Shown here one piece after another: positions 8,205 through 50,700 of a stretch of 54,117 nucleotides of DNA. Below the pieces are notes generated by a model. That model was not told where the DNA came from. It worked only from the letters and a program-made list of their open reading frames with translations, and searched no databases. The first letter of the stretch is position 1; the number at the start of each line of letters is the position of its first letter. The translations under genes were made by a program, and so were the position numbers. Source of the stretch: a virus; the IMG/VR virus record IMGVR_UViG_3300003322_000405, positions 1-54,117 of that record. One strand, 5' to 3'.

Positions 8205-9842
8205 TTAAGTCACTGCTGTCAAAGACTGTTGGGCCTGACCCAACTGCGCGGCGGCCTGTCCGGCATTGGCCAGATTCGCGATCTGTGTTTGTGCCTGCTG
8301 GTCAGCGGCGTGCTGATCGGTGATCTGCTTCATGGCATCTTCGGTGCGCATCCACTTGGCAGGCGTCCCGACGCCGTTCAGTGCATCGCGCAGCGCGGCC
8401 TGAACATCGAGCATCTGGCCTGCGACCGGATCCATCGTGACGGCCTGGTCGATGAGCTGCTTCGACTCCAGGAACTGCTGGCCCTTCTTGCGCTCGATCG
8501 CTTGGTGCAACGGTGATTCGAAGCGGAAGCGGATATCAGCGCCGCGAATCGAATCGGGGATATCGGCGGGTGATCCAAACGCGCCGGAGCGCATCAGGGA
8601 TTCGAAGGTGTCGTCGCAAAGAGCTGCGTTGTATTCCATCTCCATCGGCTCAAAGAGCGGCAGCGCGGTCCGGATGTATTCCTGGATCCGCTGGCTCGTC
8701 TCATACGCCGTCATGGGTTGAGCGGTCTGCGGTGGCAGGTTGAGCTTGTTCAGGTAGAACGCCTGACTCAACATCTCACGCGCATCCTGCAGCTGCTCGT
8801 GGCCAATCGGCATGCCGCGCAGGTCCTGCGTGATCGGTCGCAACACCTCCCCCAACTTCTCGTCGTACTCGCTATCGACCCAGGTGATGCCGCCCGCGTA
8901 GATGGCCACATCCGAGCGGATGGCTTCCTTGGTTGCGATCAGAGGCGGACGCACCGCCATCTCTCCTGCTTCGAGCAAGGTGAGAGTCATGGCTTGAATG
9001 AGGCGGGCGTCCGGCAACCCAGCCACCGTGGCGGGCGAGTAGGCGTATTGCGAGCCTGACACCGTTTGCCAGCGGGGAATCGTGTAGATGCGGCTGAAGG
9101 AGCCGATCTCCTCGAGGAGCGTCTTGTTCTCGACGTCGATGTAGACCGAAACCCACGGATAGCGCTTGAGCTTCGGGTCTTCACCTTCGTAATCCTCGGA
9201 CGACAGCACCACGTGCTGGCAGTTGATCTCCCGATGGGGAGACTTCTCCTTCGCATCCTTGACGGTCTGGTGAGCGGTCTTCGGGAACAGCTTCAACAGG
9301 TCGCGCACTGTCGGTTTCCAGCGGCGATACACCTCGTTGATGGTGCCGTTGTAACCCTCGATCCAGACAACATCCTTCAGGTGCCAGCAGCGATACAGCA
9401 GCGTCTGCGTGCGCATGTCGAGCTCGCGCCCGATCACGCACTGTCCGAAGGCGGCAAAGTCGTGATCGCCCTCCTTCGTAGCACGGACAAACTGACTCAG
9501 CCGGTCGTACATCGCTCGGCGCTGCACACCGGAGGCCCACTCCAGCCATTGACGGCCGGCCTGGTCGAGTCGCTCTTCGCGCTCGACCGTGATGCCAAAC
9601 CACTCTTCATCCCGAGGCCTGAGCATGGACGAAAACGCGTTGCCCAATTCCCGGCGGACGATGAGCGGATAGCTCGAATTCAGATCTTCCGCGAACTGCT
9701 CACCCAGGTAGTGCTGGCGCGTGAACTGCGCCCGCTCGGGGTAGAAGTTCTCCGCGATCTCCTGCCACAGGCTCATGACGCCGGAGCGCTTGGTGAAGTG
9801 ATGCTCCGCGCGATCGATGAGCGTGGTGATGCGATCCGGCAT
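8205..9842 (-). CDS. Portal / head-to-tail connector protein, 545 aa
   Basis: It should form the dodecameric DNA gate at the capsid vertex. The N-terminus (FTKRSGVMSLWQEIAENFYP and PLIVRRELGNAFSSMLRPRD) and middle (LPDARLIQAMTLTLLEAGEM; PPLIATKEAI) match the podovirus head-tail connector family. The C-terminal about 60 residues are Gln/Ala-rich (DQHAADQQAQTQIANLANAG), which may form the barrel helix. Start ATG at 9842 overlaps the upstream stop (TAATG). It lies directly downstream of TerL and two small genes. Confidence 0.88.
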   Translation of the reverse strand: MPDRITTLIDRAEHHFTKRSGVMSLWQEIAENFYPERAQFTRQHYLGEQFAEDLNSSYPLIVRRELGNAFSSMLRPRDEEWFGITVEREERLDQAGRQWLEWASGVQRRAMYDRLSQFVRATKEGDHDFAAFGQCVIGRELDMRTQTLLYRCWHLKDVVWIEGYNGTINEVYRRWKPTVRDLLKLFPKTAHQTVKDAKEKSPHREINCQHVVLSSEDYEGEDPKLKRYPWVSVYIDVENKTLLEEIGSFSRIYTIPRWQTVSGSQYAYSPATVAGLPDARLIQAMTLTLLEAGEMAVRPPLIATKEAIRSDVAIYAGGITWVDSEYDEKLGEVLRPITQDLRGMPIGHEQLQDAREMLSQAFYLNKLNLPPQTAQPMTAYETSQRIQEYIRTALPLFEPMEMEYNAALCDDTFESLMRSGAFGSPADIPDSIRGADIRFRFESPLHQAIERKKGQQFLESKQLIDQAVTMDPVAGQMLDVQAALRDALNGVGTPAKWMRTEDAMKQITDQHAADQQAQTQIANLANAGQAAAQLGQAQQSLTAVT

Positions 9843-22894: not shown

Positions 22895-23389
22895 TTATGA
22901 TGTTTGAACTGTGTCCACGGAATTTATTGTGGCCACAGTGTGTCCACGGAATGTTCCATGTGGAACAACGCTCTCAATCGGTATCCGACCCAATAGGAAA
23001 TGATGGGCGTTACCGAGCGCGATGTAATAAGCCTTGCGGTCCTCAAACCCCAACTCCTCTGCTTTCTGGGTGATGGTGATCTTCCGCCGCTGCGCATCTT
23101 TCCTCGGTACGACGTAGTGCATCCACAGCACCCGATAAGGCTCCTCCGGCATCATCGGTTCCGATCGGATAGCGCGGGACACATCCAGTGCATCACCACA
23201 CATCACTTCCCCGAACCGCTGCGTTATCGTTTTTGCCTTGGCATCTAGCTCGCCTCCTCGCGCGCGCTCGATCGTTGCCATGGTCGGGTAACCTTCTCCA
23301 GTCGACTGGAGCACCCAGCGCATGGCGCGGCCCCATGCCTCACAGGCCTCTTTGATCCCATCGATCATCACAGCAGTTGCCGAGTTCAT
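22895..23389 (-). CDS. Q-like antiterminator / late regulator, 164 aa
   Basis: The central region (DALDVSRAIRSEPMMPEEPY, RVLWMHYVVPRKDAQRRKIT) and the sigma-like HTH near residues 104-132 (TQKAEELGFEDRKAYYIALG, NAHHFLLGRI) have the make-up of phage Q-type antiterminators and ArpU-like late regulators. It is the last gene of the leftward replication unit and directly precedes a terminator and the late genes, the position Q holds in lambdoid phages. Family call by eye; a role in late gene switching is inferred from position. Confidence 0.65.
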   Translation of the reverse strand: MNSATAVMIDGIKEACEAWGRAMRWVLQSTGEGYPTMATIERARGGELDAKAKTITQRFGEVMCGDALDVSRAIRSEPMMPEEPYRVLWMHYVVPRKDAQRRKITITQKAEELGFEDRKAYYIALGNAHHFLLGRIPIESVVPHGTFRGHTVATINSVDTVQTS

Positions 23390-24703: not shown

Positions 24704-25571
24704 TTCGGATCTCCGGGGGTTTCCAATCGGCGATGGCCTGAACGTTCTGGCGGGTCTTGGCGCTGAGGTCGATCCGCGGGGGCTCGGCGTAGAGCTTCAA
24801 TCCGGCGTCGATGTGCTTCGAGTCACGCAGGAGCAGCTCGAGGTCGTCGTAGACCGTGGCCCGATCGTTCTGGCCCATGTGGTGCGGCGAGTTGCGGTAC
24901 CCCGAGATGGCTTGGTACAGCGCCGCCTCGGGGTAGTGCTCCAACGCTCGCTGAACGATCTTCCAGCGCTTCGCATCGAGCTGAGCGTGCGGGTGGCGAT
25001 GAACCGTACGCCAGTGCTCGAACACGCGAATGACATCGTCAGGCGGTTTCGCGAGAACGGTCGAGCGTTCGGGCTCGACAGGTTCCGTAGGAACCTTCTT
25101 ATCTGGTCTAGTCTGGTCTTGGTCTGGTCTGGTCTGGTCTGGTAACGCATCAGCGTTACACGCACGTTTCTTGCTGACACGCTCAACAGTTACACTCTCA
25201 CGATGGCGTGCAACGCGCTTCTGAGTGAGTGCTTTTTTCTTAGCCTCGGTGCCGTTATGTTCCAGAAAACCCGGAAGTTTTACGTGCTCCGCGTCGATGA
25301 CCTGAAGCCAGTCATCTGGGAGCAGGCTGCAGAAACCTTGGAGCCCGACGATCTCGTCTATGTCGTCTATCCCGAGGTCAAGAAGGTCACCCTCACGGAC
25401 GTGAGTATCGGCGTAACACCAGAGCTGCGTGAGGCAGCCTAGTACCAGCGTAACGTGCATCTGATTCGTGAAACGCTCATGCGTTACACCAGCGTTACCG
25501 AGTTGCCGAGCGATGCGAATGACCCGCGGATCGTCACGCAGGGATTTCTCGAACTTGATCCAGCCGCTCAT
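24690..25571 (-). CDS. Replication initiator (O-like), 293 aa
   Basis: The N-terminal part (GWIKFEKSLRDDPRVIRIAR; LGCLTQLWCYADTHVREGDL; LGIDDIDEIVGLQGFCSLLP) is the winged-helix type opening of many phage replication initiators. A hydrophilic linker with a PDQTRPDQDQTRPDKK repeat follows, then a C-terminal domain (VFEHWRTVHRHPHAQLDAKR). ATG 25571 overlaps the stop of the zinc-ribbon gene (ATGA). The linker DNA is a TGGTC-type repeat next to an inverted repeat, a candidate origin inside the gene, as in lambda O. Confidence 0.7.
   Translation of the reverse strand: MSGWIKFEKSLRDDPRVIRIARQLGNAGVTHERFTNQMHVTLVLGCLTQLWCYADTHVREGDLLDLGIDDIDEIVGLQGFCSLLPDDWLQVIDAEHVKLPGFLEHNGTEAKKKALTQKRVARHRESVTVERVSKKRACNADALPDQTRPDQDQTRPDKKVPTEPVEPERSTVLAKPPDDVIRVFEHWRTVHRHPHAQLDAKRWKIVQRALEHYPEAALYQAISGYRNSPHHMGQNDRATVYDDLELLLRDSKHIDAGLKLYAEPPRIDLSAKTRQNVQAIADWKPPEIRNAGQ
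25081..25145. repeat. Candidate replication origin: inverted repeat plus TGGTC repeats
   Basis: GGTTCCGTAGGAACC (25081-25095) is a perfect 6-bp inverted repeat. From about 25103 to 25143 the pentamer TCTGG is repeated, with the last four or five copies in direct tandem. It lies in the linker of the O-like gene. Iterons inside the initiator gene are known for lambdoid origins; the role here is inferred. Confidence 0.45.
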
Positions 25572-31736: not shown

Positions 31737-32111
31737 ATGAGCACCGTGGACTTCGACACCTTGGCAGCGTATGTGAAGACGCGCAAAGTCGGCGCGGTCT
31801 CAGCCTGGTGCGCTCGCAATCGGGTGCTGACCTTCCGCGACACGAAGGGGCGCCCGTGCACGACACTCGAAGCTCTGAATCGAGCCCTGTACCGCGGCAA
31901 AGATAACAACGAACCAAACTACGAACCGCCACCATGGGAAAACTCACCTGCGGACTCACCATCCCCGGCGTCTTCGAAAAAGACGGCCGGTATTACAAGG
32001 TTGTCCGAAATGAATGGATCAAGCTTTCCCGGATCGATGAAGGGATCCAGGCGCTCCACCGTGCGCTCTTTGAGCTCGACCCAGCCAGACCCGGGACGAT
32101 CGGGCAAATGA
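31737..32111 (+). CDS. DUF4224/excisionase-like protein, up to 124 aa
   Basis: FDTLAAYVKTRKVGAVSAWC and RNRVLTFRDTKGRPCTTLEA read as the small winged-helix DUF4224 type found before phage integrases. ATG 31737 has a perfect AGGAGG. The conserved part ends near residue 65; the rest overlaps the integrase gene by 178 bases and is low-complexity Ser/Pro. It likely controls integration direction or integrase expression. Confidence 0.55.
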   Translation: MSTVDFDTLAAYVKTRKVGAVSAWCARNRVLTFRDTKGRPCTTLEALNRALYRGKDNNEPNYEPPPWENSPADSPSPASSKKTAGITRLSEMNGSSFPGSMKGSRRSTVRSLSSTQPDPGRSGK

Positions 32112-32854
32112 TCGACTTCTATCGCGCATCCGGCATGGAAGGACTGTCGTCGGCCACGCAACATCGCTACGGCAACATCCTAAACCGGCTCGACCACCAC
32201 TTCGGGAAGATGCGCATCGGGACCCTGAAGCGTTCACACGTAGCAGTATTCCTTGAGAAGCGCCGCAAGAAAGGCCGTGGCGCGATTTCAGCGAACCGAG
32301 AACGCGCGGTGTTGTCCTCGGTGCACGAGTTTGCCTTGCGCCAGGGATGGATCGAGGAGAATCCCTGTCGTGAGGTACGGCGCAATCCTGAGACCCCTCG
32401 CAAACGCTACGTCACCGATGCGGAGTTCTCCGACGCGTTCGAGCGATCACCCGAACCGTTTCAGGACTTGCTCGCCGTGGCATTCCTGACCGGCATTCGG
32501 GAAACCGACCTCATCAACTTGAAGCGGGCCGAACATCTGAAGCCAGAAGGGATCGTGTTTGTTGAGAGCAAGACCGGCAAGGCTCACACCAAACAATGGT
32601 CGGATGCACTGCGGTTTTTTGTGCGCCGTGCCATGGAGCGATTCCCGGAATCTGAGTACGTGCTCACAAATAAATTCGGCGCTCAGTGGAGCGTGTGGGC
32701 GATCAACAGCCAGAAGCGTAGGCTAGGACTCACCTGGGCCTTCCGGGACCTTCGCTCCAAGGCGCAGACGGATGCCGAGCATTCCGTCCTTGGCCACGGT
32801 GCGGTCATGGAAGGGGTCTACAGAAAAATGCTAATAACGAGGCCAGTGCGATGA
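31934..32854 (+). CDS. Tyrosine integrase 1, 306 aa
   Basis: Site-specific recombinase for integration. Arm-binding/SAM-like N-terminal part to about residue 150, then catalytic domain with Arg189 (LTGIRETDL), Lys213 (ESKTGK), Arg271/Arg274 (FRDLR, where the usual His is Arg), His288 (VLGHG) and Tyr296 (GVYRKM). The stop is only two bases before the first attP arm repeat and 36 bases before the tRNA-derived core, so this is the most likely partner of that attP. Confidence 0.9.
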   Translation: MGKLTCGLTIPGVFEKDGRYYKVVRNEWIKLSRIDEGIQALHRALFELDPARPGTIGQMIDFYRASGMEGLSSATQHRYGNILNRLDHHFGKMRIGTLKRSHVAVFLEKRRKKGRGAISANRERAVLSSVHEFALRQGWIEENPCREVRRNPETPRKRYVTDAEFSDAFERSPEPFQDLLAVAFLTGIRETDLINLKRAEHLKPEGIVFVESKTGKAHTKQWSDALRFFVRRAMERFPESEYVLTNKFGAQWSVWAINSQKRRLGLTWAFRDLRSKAQTDAEHSVLGHGAVMEGVYRKMLITRPVR

Positions 32855-32890
32855 ACTTAGAGACTAGGGCATCAGACTTAGAGGGGAAAT

Positions 32891-32940
32891 TGGTGGGCCG
32901 TGTAGGAGTCGAACCTACGACCAAGAGATTAAGAGCCGCC
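32891..32940 (-). other. 3' half of a tRNA-Lys(CTT) gene, attP core
   Basis: On the minus strand the sequence reads from the anticodon loop (CTCTTAA) through the T-arm (GTAGG-TTCGACT-CCTAC) and acceptor strand ACGGCCCA to CCA. The 5' half (acceptor strand GGGCCGT and D-arm) is absent, so this is not a working tRNA gene. It is the part of the host gene carried by the phage so that the tRNA is rebuilt on integration. Confidence 0.85.
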
Positions 32941-32977
32941 TTTCCCAATTCAACTTCTCCGCAGAAATTAGCGCCTT

Positions 32978-32994
32978 CACCTCTAAGCGAGGTG
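32978..32994. repeat. Hairpin in the right arm of attP
   Basis: CACCTC (32978-32983) pairs with GAGGTG (32989-32994) over a 5-base loop and includes the inverted arm repeat. It may be a protein-binding inverted repeat. Confidence 0.4.
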
Positions 32995-33232
32995 TTGGAA
33001 ACCACTCGAAAAGTCTCGGCGTTTCCATCGTCTCTTAGAGACCGCCGGGCCTATCACCGCGCCTACTACGCCAAGACAGCCGCCCGCCGGCGGCTGTTAG
33101 CCTCTCACCGTCGTCAGTGCCGGACGTGGTGCGCCTGGCTCCTGCAGGAGATTGGTTGCGACGCTCGTACAGTACTCGATTTGCAAACCGCACAGTATTG
33201 CAAGGTATCCAGCTCAAGCATGGACTTGACGC

Positions 33233-34075
33233 ATGGACACCGAAACAACACCGACGACGGCGGTCACCGTCAACGACATCCTGGATCGCTACGAGCGCGA
33301 TTGCCTGCCGCTATTGGCGCCCGGAACGATCAAGGGTTATCGCTATCACATCCGGGATCTGCGCGTGGCATTCGGGGCTGCGATCGCCGCGGAACTCAGA
33401 CCGAAAGACTTCGGGCCCTTCCTGAATGTGCGACGCGGGAAGTGCCATCGTGTGCGCCAGCTCGCAGTCCTCTCAGCCGCGTTCACTCAGGCGGTGAGCG
33501 CCTGGTACGTCCTCGAGACGAACGTGCTACGGGACGTGAAGCGGCCGAAGTTCCGGCCCCGCGATCGATTGGTCAGCGATGCGGAATTCAAGGGACTGGC
33601 CGCTCTGGTCCCGAAGCGGATCCGGCTCGCCATGATGCTAGCGGTGCTCACCGGTCAGCGCCAGGGCGACATCATCCGGTTTCGCTGGTCCGACATTCAG
33701 GACAACGCGCTGGTCATCCAACAGGGCAAGACCGGCAAGCGTTTGGCCATCGAGATCACCAAGGACCTCGAGCAGGTTCTGGATCAGTGCTGGCTGCTTC
33801 CTGGGGGTGGCCACGCAGGGTCGGAATACGTGCTGCCGAACATGTACGGCCGGCCGTACACGCCGGAAGGCTTTCGAGCCTGCTGGCAAAAGCAGATGAA
33901 CAAGTGGGTTCGGCTGGGAAATGCACGCCACACCTTCCACGACCTGAGAGCCCTTGCGGCTACTCGCTGCCCTACTCCGGAAGTCGCCATGCGGCTGTTG
34001 GGGCACTCCAATATCTCCATGACTTTAAGGGTCTACCGTCGTGGTGTCGAGCGAGTGTCAGCACTCACCGTGTAG
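33233..34075 (+). CDS. Tyrosine integrase 2, 280 aa
   Basis: A second complete tyrosine recombinase of a different sequence type. SAM-like domain (TPTTAVTVNDILDRYERDCL; APGTIKGYRYHIRDLRVAFG) and all catalytic residues: Arg143 (TGQRQGD), Lys166 (GKTGKR), His236/Arg239 (HTFHDLR), His258 (LLGHS) and Tyr268 (LRVYRR). It starts about 190 bases beyond the last attP arm repeat; the gap 33041-33232 contains no convincing gene, only a CTCCTGCAGGAG palindrome at 33139. Why the phage keeps two integrases is unclear. Confidence 0.88.
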   Translation: MDTETTPTTAVTVNDILDRYERDCLPLLAPGTIKGYRYHIRDLRVAFGAAIAAELRPKDFGPFLNVRRGKCHRVRQLAVLSAAFTQAVSAWYVLETNVLRDVKRPKFRPRDRLVSDAEFKGLAALVPKRIRLAMMLAVLTGQRQGDIIRFRWSDIQDNALVIQQGKTGKRLAIEITKDLEQVLDQCWLLPGGGHAGSEYVLPNMYGRPYTPEGFRACWQKQMNKWVRLGNARHTFHDLRALAATRCPTPEVAMRLLGHSNISMTLRVYRRGVERVSALTV

Positions 34076-34082
34076 GTGCGCC

Positions 34083-34223
34083 ATGAGCCGCCTCGTCAGG
34101 ATCCTGATCGGACTGCTCATGCTGGCCTTGGCTCTCGCCGCGATGGCGTATCTCTACAAGAACGAGCCGCGTCACTCTGATTGCTTTGATGACCGGGCCA
34201 ACCCGTGGTGCAGCCATGATTAA
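34083..34223 (+). CDS. Small single-span membrane protein, 46 aa
   Basis: Signal-anchor type N-terminus (SRLVRILIGLLMLALALAAM) and a short hydrophilic tail with two Cys. Start 34083, eight bases after the integrase 2 stop. First of four membrane-protein genes in a row. Confidence 0.55.
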   Translation: MSRLVRILIGLLMLALALAAMAYLYKNEPRHSDCFDDRANPWCSHD

Positions 34224-47748: not shown

Positions 47749-50700
47749 TGAAGCGCCGTACTCAGATCCGGCGCACGCTCCGGAATGGCTTGGCCAGGCT
47801 CCCAGTAGTACCGCTGGTGGAAGTCGCTTTGCGCACGAGCGCGCATCCGGCTCAAATATCCAGGACTGTAGTACTCCTGAAGGTTCTGCCAGATCATGTG
47901 ATCCAGCGCAGCCTTCAGGTACCACAGCGATGCACCCGGCGTATTGCTCTTGACGAAGCGGACGATATCGGCGCCTACGTTGGTCTTTTTATCGGTTAGC
48001 GTCTTGACCACGTTTCCCTGGGACAGGTTGAAGAGGTCTTCCGCTGAAGATAACACCGGACCGGTCAGCGAGGCGAGTGGGCTGTTTCCATATTGTGTCG
48101 TATCCGAGAACAACAGGTCGCCGTAGATCCCGAGCGAGCCGCCCTTCAGGAACGCGGCCAACAGGTTGCGACCGGCCGCCGTCTTGCCGCCGATGTTCGC
48201 CGGATTGATGTCCTTGGGATCCCGACCGGAGAGGATCTCGTTCAATTCGAGCGAGATTGCTCCCAGGACCGTGGTCGATGCCATCAGGGCGGCGATATAG
48301 GCCGCCCGGCCCGTGCGGGTTGGGAGCGTCATTCCTCGACTGAGATGCCGATAGATCATGGCGAGCGGAAACGACTTGAACAGGAAGAACGATCGTGTGA
48401 GCTCACCCTTCCAAGTCCCCCGTTGCAATCCGGATCCGGTGAACGCTTTCTCGCGTGCGCCCGGCTCGATCACTGCAGTATCGGTCTCCTCGAGGATGGC
48501 TCCCAGTAGCTTGGTGACCGCCTGCTCCCGGGCCTTCATCCGTTCGCCCGCAATGGCGGGTTCGATGTCGCGCTGAATCCGGTCCATGACCGCTTGGCGC
48601 CGCCCGGCGCGCTCGTTAGCGCGGTCGGTGAACTCATCCAGCTCCGCCTTCTTGGCGGCCCACTTCTCTGCGAAGTCGAGCGACTTCTCCTGCTTCGAGG
48701 CTGCCAGTTCCTTGGTGATATCACGGATCTGCTGCTTGAGGTTCGTGGCCGCCTCGCGTGCTCGGCCCTCGCGCACTCCCTGCGATCGTAGATCACCGAA
48801 GTTGGGGCGCGAAGTATTGGCCTTTGTCCACAGATCATCGGCCGCCTTGATCTGCTCGCGTAACTTCGAGACCTGTTCCACCGACTTGTTGATCTTGGCA
48901 GTCAGCTTTTCATCCGCGCCATCGAGTCGATCGGTGAGTCGAGCGTTGGCTTCCGTGAACAGTTCGTCGAACTTGTCCATGGCGAAAGCGATCTTGCGCT
49001 CGTCGCCCGATTCGATTAGCTGCTGGATCTCGTGCTCTTTTGCGACGAACTTCTCTTTGAAGTCGCCTTCCAATCCTTCCTTCAGGGAGGCGGTGTCGGT
49101 TGCCGCCTTGCGCAGCTTCGCGGCGAGCTGATCGATAGCTGATTGGTTTCGACCTTCAGAGACTCCGGCCCGGCGCAGATCCGCCAAGCTGACCTGATTG
49201 TCCTTAGTCTGCTTGAAGTAGGAATTGGCCGTGTCGAGTTGATCGTAGAGACCGCCGAGACGCTTGCGGATTCCATCGATCCGCGCCTTGGTGTTGGCAT
49301 CTGCCTTCGCGGCTTGCTGTGCCAGGCGGTCCTGTTGATCTTTCACCCACTGCCGCAGTCGATCGGTGCGCTTCTGCGCCAAGGCCTGATCTTGGGCATT
49401 GCGATCCTGCAGACCCTTGATTTGCTCATTCGCCGCATCGTGAAGCGCTTGGATTCGCGGACCGATGACCTTGTCGATCTCAGCATCCGGTATGCGATAG
49501 ATGCTCTCTGGCGTGAGCATCGAGTCATTACCGCTTCCCCAGTCTTCCAGCTTCGCCTTTTTCCAAACCTGGAAGTCGTCTTCGGTGATGCCCTTTGACA
49601 GCAGGATCCGGTGATCCTGCGCATCGATATCTCTGAGTGTGGCGTGATCACGCGCGACACTGCCTATGGAACCCATCATGGTCACGCCGAACCCGCGCTT
49701 GCGTGCATCGGTGATGGCGTTCAGTCCCGAGACGCGCATCACACTGTTGGCAAGTTTGGAGGAGAAGCTCTTGCCCAAGCCATTCTGGCCGAAACGATTC
49801 AGCGTGGCCTTCATGGCGTTCAGCGCCAGCCCGGCGCGCAACGCCATCCGTTCTTCCATGCGGTTCGCTGGGTTGAAGGTCGCCAACTGATTGCGGATCA
49901 GTTGCATCTCGGGCAGGTGATTGAGTCGTGCTGTGAGATGCAGCGTCGCCTCGTCAGAGAATGAGGTGACGATCGAAGATCCCAGCCGGGAGGCAATCAG
50001 CCAGTTGCGCAGCGTGTCGAATGTCGTGGCTAGCGCTCGGGATGCAACCGGTTGAGTCTTTCCAGCCACGACGTTATAGAGGTTCTCAGTGTTGATCGCC
50101 CGGGAGTCGATCTTGTCCACCTCCGTTGGATCGGCCATCTTCGCATCCCGTACCGCCTCATCGCGGAATAGGCGGAAAGTGTGATCCGGATTCGGACCAA
50201 ACGCCTCGGTGAGCGCAATGTCCTTCGAGATACCCTCGATGTGACCGACGAGCACTTCGTAAAGTGACTTGTCGCCGTACTTGGACTGATAGTCCATGTA
50301 GGCATCCGCATTTTTGAAGTGGATCTGACGAGAAGCGTTGCCGCGGTTCGCGCGCGCGCCGCCTCCGCTGAATGCGCCCGGCTCAACCTTGTTCGCACCG
50401 CCGGTGGCGATCGTGGTCCACGCTTCCTTGAGGAACTCGTTCAACTGCGGATCGGTCATCCGCGTACCGTCGGGGTTGAAGTAGTGATCACGATCCAGGT
50501 GCGGCAGAATGTCCTGCACCCACTGATCTCGCCCTGCCAGTGCCACCTTGGACTGGGAATGATGGTGCGGCATACCCCAATCATCGAGCTCACCCACATC
50601 GCCGCCGGCGCGGTTGAACCGCTCGCGAAGAGCTGAGGTGACCTTCTGCCACTCCTTTGCGCCCGCATCCGCTTCCGGAATTCCCGTCTTCTCACCGAAG

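Follow-up and report, generated by a model that had tools for sequence, protein, structure and literature searches.

The segment at positions 32856–33040 of the virus record IMGVR_UViG_3300003322_000405 is almost certainly the attP of a temperate phage that is used by the neighbouring Int1, a heterobivalent tyrosine integrase of the lambda type, and is directed at the anticodon loop of a tRNA gene. The record, which was analysed over its full length of 54,117 bases (the window), encodes phage head, terminase, connector and tail genes. Around 32.9 kb it carries the Int1 gene, a 185-bp segment with four copies of the heptamer CTTAGAG arranged around half a tRNA gene, and, on the same strand as Int1, the gene of a second tyrosine recombinase, Int2. 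The attP is therefore flanked by two recombinase genes, an arrangement that the initial annotation of this DNA did not mention. Sites of this type are well known, and the present one belongs to a known kind because lambda, Islander and Boilgate already show the same combination of elements. Its geometry is unusually well documented by natural variants, and the companion recombinase is unexplained.

Anatomy of the attachment site

The Int1 gene (31934–32854, plus strand) ends with its stop codon 1 bp 5′ of the first arm site. Two P-arm sites with the sequence CTTAGAG are located on the plus strand at 32856–32862 and 32877–32883, 73 and 52 bp to the left of the centre of the anticodon loop; they are 21 bp apart, which corresponds to two helical turns. 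At the opposite side of the core, P′-arm site 1 (32981–32987, minus strand) is inverted and lies 52 bp to the right of the centre, and P′-arm site 2 (33034–33040, plus strand) lies at 105 bp, 53 bp from P′-arm site 1. The positions of all four arm sites are kept in the relatives described below.

The attP core is a truncated tRNA-Lys(CTT) gene on the minus strand (32891–32935), of which the 3′ half, from the anticodon loop to the CCA end, is present. Read from 32935 to 32891 it has the sequence CTCTTAATCTCTTGGTCGTAGGTTCGACTCCTACACGGCCCACCA, consisting of the loop CTCTTAA, the variable loop, a perfect T-stem (GTAGG/CCTAC), the 3′ strand of the acceptor stem and CCA, whereas the 5′ half is missing. 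The assignment to lysine follows from the anticodon, CTT. ARAGORN calls no tRNA at 32891–32935 and Rfam leaves this region unmatched at E≤1, as is expected for a half gene. Both the sequence and the missing ARAGORN call bear out the fragment as it was first annotated, although the length of the core is 45 bp and not the 50 bases proposed. In L002, L006 and L007, 43 bp of the core are identical, and among the plasmids of the collection scanned the 45-base core has its best match inside a complete tRNA-Lys(ctt) gene. The anticodon loop (32929–32935, minus strand) is the putative 7-bp overlap region for crossover. An open reading frame running across the core (32851–34086) was rejected as a real gene, as its frames are not conserved and L003 reads the tRNA in another frame.

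The window contains exactly four copies of CTTAGAG (32856+, 32877+, 32981− and 33034+), at the positions originally reported. The composition-matched expectation is 2.4 copies per window, or about one per 22 kb, and not one per 8 kb as previously assumed. In simulated Markov sequence some 7-mer reaches four occurrences within 185 bp at a rate of 0.18 per 54 kb (11 of 60 simulations). One other equally tight 7-mer cluster exists in the window, a short tandem repeat at 25103. This repeat consists of AGACCAG repeated with a period of 10–11 bp at 25102–25140. The clustering on which the initial annotation had relied is thus real, but the statistical argument alone was overstated: at a chance expectation of 0.18 per 54 kb the repeat count by itself is suggestive, not decisive. 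The decisive evidence for arm sites, as judged from sequence comparison, is the conservation of their positions in relatives.

Int1 and the proposed recombination

Int1 is a tyrosine integrase of 306 residues, classified as integrase by PHROGs and containing the Pfam domains Phage_int_SAM_1, Phage_int_M and Phage_integrase. The predicted structure shows a putative N-terminal arm-binding domain with a β-β-β-α topology (residues 13–48; strands 13–16, 19–24 and 27–33, helix 38–48), which precedes the core-binding and catalytic domains. This N-terminal domain is conserved across 13 members, and lambda Int is the closest solved structure to the Int1 model. The catalytic residues R189, K213, R274, H288 and Y296 are present. 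The first histidine of the HxxR box (residue 271), however, is an arginine in Int1 and an arginine or lysine in the close relatives L002–L006; it is kept in L008, L017 and L018. Named phages offer no close relative of the Int1 family: their best integrase match shows about 29% identity, and a sequence search of named phages returned short tRNA matches only. In L002 a gene for 166 residues (8918–9418) is present between Int1 and the arm sites, and its N-terminus (HWKDGGFYYVRGNKWTHLG) resembles the arm-binding domain of Int1.

In the proposed mechanism, the C-terminal domains of Int1 would cut and rejoin the DNA in the anticodon loop carried by the tRNA-Lys(CTT) half, while the N-terminal domain would hold the four CTTAGAG arms, two at each side, with the DNA folding into an integration complex. 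Recombination with what is presumably a host chromosome would join the 5′ half of the host gene to the 3′ half supplied by the phage, leaving an intact tRNA beside Int1, and the displaced 3′ fragment of the host would end up at the far end of the prophage, beside Int2.

The second recombinase, Int2

Int2 (33233–34075, plus strand; 280 residues) aligns with residues 67–342 of lambda Int and contains the core-binding and catalytic domains, the arm-binding domain being missing. Residues R143, K169, R239, H258 and Y268 are invariant, and H236 is nearly invariant, in 10 Int2 proteins. This retention of the catalytic residues sets Int2 apart from repressors of the MrpR type, in which such residues are lost; MrpR is a phage protein of tyrosine-recombinase fold that acts as a repressor (PMC10516654).

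The Int2 family comprises 15 loci, the window and 14 further contigs. At 13 of these, the window included, another tyrosine recombinase is found within about 1.5 kb; the two loci without a partner are L027, which is cut off at the contig start, and L021, which is solitary. A tRNA 3′ half lies between both recombinases at seven loci (the window, L022, L023, L024, L025, L056 and L057), where the first integrases are of several unrelated types and the cores derive from Lys-CTT, Lys-TTT and other tRNAs. Int2 is located upstream of its partner in three loci (L026, L046 and L052), and a relative of Int2 is found about 5–7 kb upstream of Int1 in four Asn-type phages. In L006, the closest relative, Int2 is absent, and the last arm site is directly followed by the gene whose counterpart in the window comes after Int2. 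The same att site occurs without an adjacent Int2 in L002, L003, L004 and L006, and a search with PF00589 detected no other recombinase on these contigs, which are possibly incomplete.

These observations bear on the possibility that the attP is real, but that integration is performed by Int2, or by Int1 and Int2 together, either with Int1 as an arm-bound regulator and Int2 as the cutting enzyme, or with the two acting as a pair like XerC and XerD. The location of Int2 immediately across attP, its preserved catalytic residues and its recurrence beside attP modules, mostly in pairs and at seven loci around a tRNA 3′ half, would be compatible with such a role. On the other hand, Int2 has no arm-binding domain, it is combined with unrelated first integrases, it is placed about 5–7 kb from attP in the four Asn-type phages, and the Int1 relatives mentioned above keep the same att site without it, with the reservation that their contigs may be incomplete. 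Int2 as the only enzyme is disfavoured because close relatives carry the same site without Int2, and a direct part of Int2 in strand exchange at this site, alone or with Int1, is considered unlikely.

In mycobacteriophage Brujita an arm-less enzyme is the sole integrase. Like this arm-less integrase (PDB entry 5vfz), Int2 has core-binding and catalytic domains only. Unlike the Brujita enzyme, Int2 is found together with a complete arm-binding integrase, its sequence has more in common with lambda Int, and with a second recombinase nearby it at all but two of its loci it does not generally occur as a sole integrase.

Int2 may recombine DNA at some other place, or it may belong to the att module as an accessory. 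It is conceivable, though we regard it as a tentative idea with the balance against it, that the two genes constitute a two-recombinase module, in which a conserved armless Int2, exchangeable between unrelated integrases and mostly situated directly across attP, contributes to integration or excision or controls them. Integration would, for instance, separate Int2 from the Int1 transcript by placing it at the other end of the prophage. In the literature, which was covered in part, no description of paired integrases around attP was found.

Armless recombinases of the Int2 type are present in the window (33233–34075) and in L019–L028, L046, L052, L056, L057 and L084–L087, in most cases immediately across attP and in some at a distance of several kb. 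In at least three phages Int2 is preceded by a small basic reading frame with the pattern RRAYxxxYYxxTxxRR...WLLxxL (window 33041–33200, L022 4790–4960, L021 4790–4990), which in the window has no clear start codon.

Conservation of the arm geometry

With Int1 and alignments built on it as queries, viral contigs yielded 25 relatives (L058–L082), which together with the window make up the Int1 family. In all 25 a tRNA 3′ half is found just downstream of the integrase gene. The tRNA halves next to these integrases belong to Lys-CTT, Lys-TTT, Asn-GTT or Thr-CGT, and in the window as well as in all 25 relatives the fragment begins at the anticodon loop.

Relative to the centre of the anticodon loop, the arms of the window are positioned at −73, −52, +52 (inverted) and +105. 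Eight relatives share this layout, and in them 30 of the 32 arm positions predicted from the template are filled with at most one mismatch. As a control the same four-arm template was slid along the same loci; in 19,848 placements a mean of 0.022 of the 4 arms was filled, with a maximum of 1. The integrases of the relatives that keep the arm positions are 59–93% identical, and among six aligned sites the stretches between the arms and the core have diverged widely. A scan with the P′ arms only retrieved 16 stretches, six of which have a tRNA core in the predicted place, all in contigs of the Int1 family; the remaining 10 contain no tRNA and have a low GC content.

Natural variants of the site

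The clade of the Int1 tree that is characterized by CTTAGAG mixes users of Lys-CTT, Lys-TTT and Asn-GTT, with constant arms and a varying core. When the target labels are mapped on the integrase tree 5 changes are counted, compared to 12.9 for shuffled labels. In L066 and L072, located on the same contigs as L026 and L015, respectively, arms and core are inverted as one unit relative to the integrase gene, and the distance to the P arms is longer by about 44 bp in L066 and about 10 bp in L072, corresponding to approximately four helical turns and one. In L064, L065, L068, L070, L071 and L077 the tRNA is flipped about the same anticodon-loop centre and the orientation of the arms is kept; at these flipped-tRNA sites the P′ pair is situated about 10 bp further out in all except L071. 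The constancy of the arm distances to the centre of the anticodon loop, despite the flipping or replacement of the tRNA, together with the analogy to known systems, suggests that this loop is the probable place of crossover. The conserved arm spacing and the switching of tRNA cores while the arms stay in place support the assignment as attP with integrase arm sites that had been put forward in the initial annotation, with Int1 as the enzyme that presumably binds CTTAGAG.

In distant family members the arm word itself has changed. In L078 the word CTTAGGCA is found at −85, −65, +50 and +102, in a layout similar to that of the window, and other distant members have CTTAGAA (L075 and L082) or CTTGGAA (L076). 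Across branches (L075, L076, L078, L080, L082 and L022) the words CTTAGAA, CTTGGAA, CTTAGGCA, GGTAGAC and CTGTCTC are observed in similar layouts. The differences in arm word between branches of the Int1 family are a natural data set for the specificity of the arm-binding domain. Taken together, the natural variants fit an enzyme with separate domains for the arms and the core, as far as can be read from their sequences.

The variants also bear on the proposal that the CTTAGAG repeats serve as operators through which a transcription regulator controls int or the downstream gene, the tRNA half being an unrelated relic. Short repeated heptamers in an intergenic gap could have such a function, and some phage proteins of tyrosine-recombinase fold are repressors (MrpR, PMC10516654). 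However, the positions of the arms are locked to the centre of the anticodon loop and are independent of gene starts; moreover, the arms invert together with the core and persist when the right-hand gene changes. The operator reading is rejected because the spacing follows the core and not the genes, and its probability is judged to be very small. A chance cluster of 7-mers beside a tRNA-derived att core, for which the background rate of equally tight clusters might be invoked, has a negligible probability and is refuted by the positional conservation in relatives with diverged integrases, set against near-zero filling in the controls. Finally, a tandem or chimeric prophage junction, in which two integrases would meet at the core, was rejected, as both arm pairs are in the attP layout of the family and the same unsplit layout is seen both in L006, which lacks Int2, and in L025, which has it.

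Putative integrated forms and predicted host target

L067 carries a complete canonical tRNA-Lys(CTT) after its Int1 homologue; the P-arm sites are not recognisable in this contig, which ends 42 bp past the tRNA. L069 agrees with the intact attP of L070 as far as the CCA end of tRNA-Asn and then continues into different DNA without P′ arms. Beyond the tRNA-Asn junction a broken integrase fragment (YAVATGHAERNPTGGLSARSPLVVRNHAAI) is present at L069 3590–4199, so that L069 has the appearance, in its sequence, of a natural prophage junction in a tRNA hot spot. A complete tRNA-Asn is called by ARAGORN in both L068 and L069, but the 5′ part of these calls is doubtful because both arm pairs are present at the L068 site, which is an attP. 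L067 and L069 provide partial direct evidence for the integrated form in relatives. They lend support to the host target given in the initial annotation, tRNA-Lys(CTT), which for the phage of the window is a prediction. Two scans of genome collections, with Int1 and Int2 as queries, revealed no bacterial prophage of the Int1 family. This negative result, the missing IHF-like site (see below), the substituted histidine of Int1 and the shortcomings of L067 are the points that weigh against the proposed attP reading. ARAGORN additionally reports a tRNA-Arg(gcg) of 100 bases at 49856–49955 of the window, which lies inside an open reading frame of 1147 residues and is probably spurious.

Relation to known systems

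Lambda Int is a heterobivalent tyrosine integrase that uses arm-type and core-type sites (PMC4880445). Int1 and lambda Int have in common an N-terminal arm-binding domain (predicted in Int1), a core-binding and a catalytic domain, and at both attP sites short repeats flank the core on P and P′ arms. In contrast to lambda, the core in the window is part of a tRNA gene, the arm sites number four instead of five and the arm word is CTTAGAG. In addition, no IHF-like site is recognised in the window (searched at 32841–33240 with at most one mismatch), and the Int1 clade has Arg or Lys instead of the first histidine of HxxR.

The attP of mycobacteriophage Boilgate has a 43-bp core over tRNA-Lys(TTT) and flanking arm-type sites (PMC10865867). 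The present site is similar in having a core of about 43–45 bp that covers a tRNA-Lys from its anticodon region through the 3′ half, putative arm-type sites at both sides, and a functional tRNA that would be rebuilt at one junction. It differs from the Boilgate site in the CTT isoacceptor, in the integrase and arm sequence, and in the second recombinase across attP. The Islander collection contains 2083 anticodon-centred islands with a 3′ fragment of the tDNA in attP (PMC4383910). The 3′ tDNA fragment and the probable anticodon-centred crossover of the window correspond to Islander sublocation A; in contrast to the islands and prophages of that collection, the site is known here from virus contigs alone.

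The analysis assigns a defined target, predicted to be tRNA-Lys(CTT), to an uncultivated temperate phage. It also provides 26 integrase/attP pairs of one family that differ separately in arm word, arm geometry and target tRNA, as material on the reading of arm sites by N-terminal domains and on the change of target by phages. The recurring second recombinase beside attP could add a layer of control to integration.

A separate observation concerns a palindrome near GTTCCACGTGGAAC, which we take to resemble chromosomal parS sites. It occurs within attP or in the gap between the integrases in L004 (2346), L007 (1419), L019 (4591), L020 (4605) and L028 (4764), and a similar palindrome is present at position 22953 of the window, with about 0.8 matches expected in all sequence scanned.
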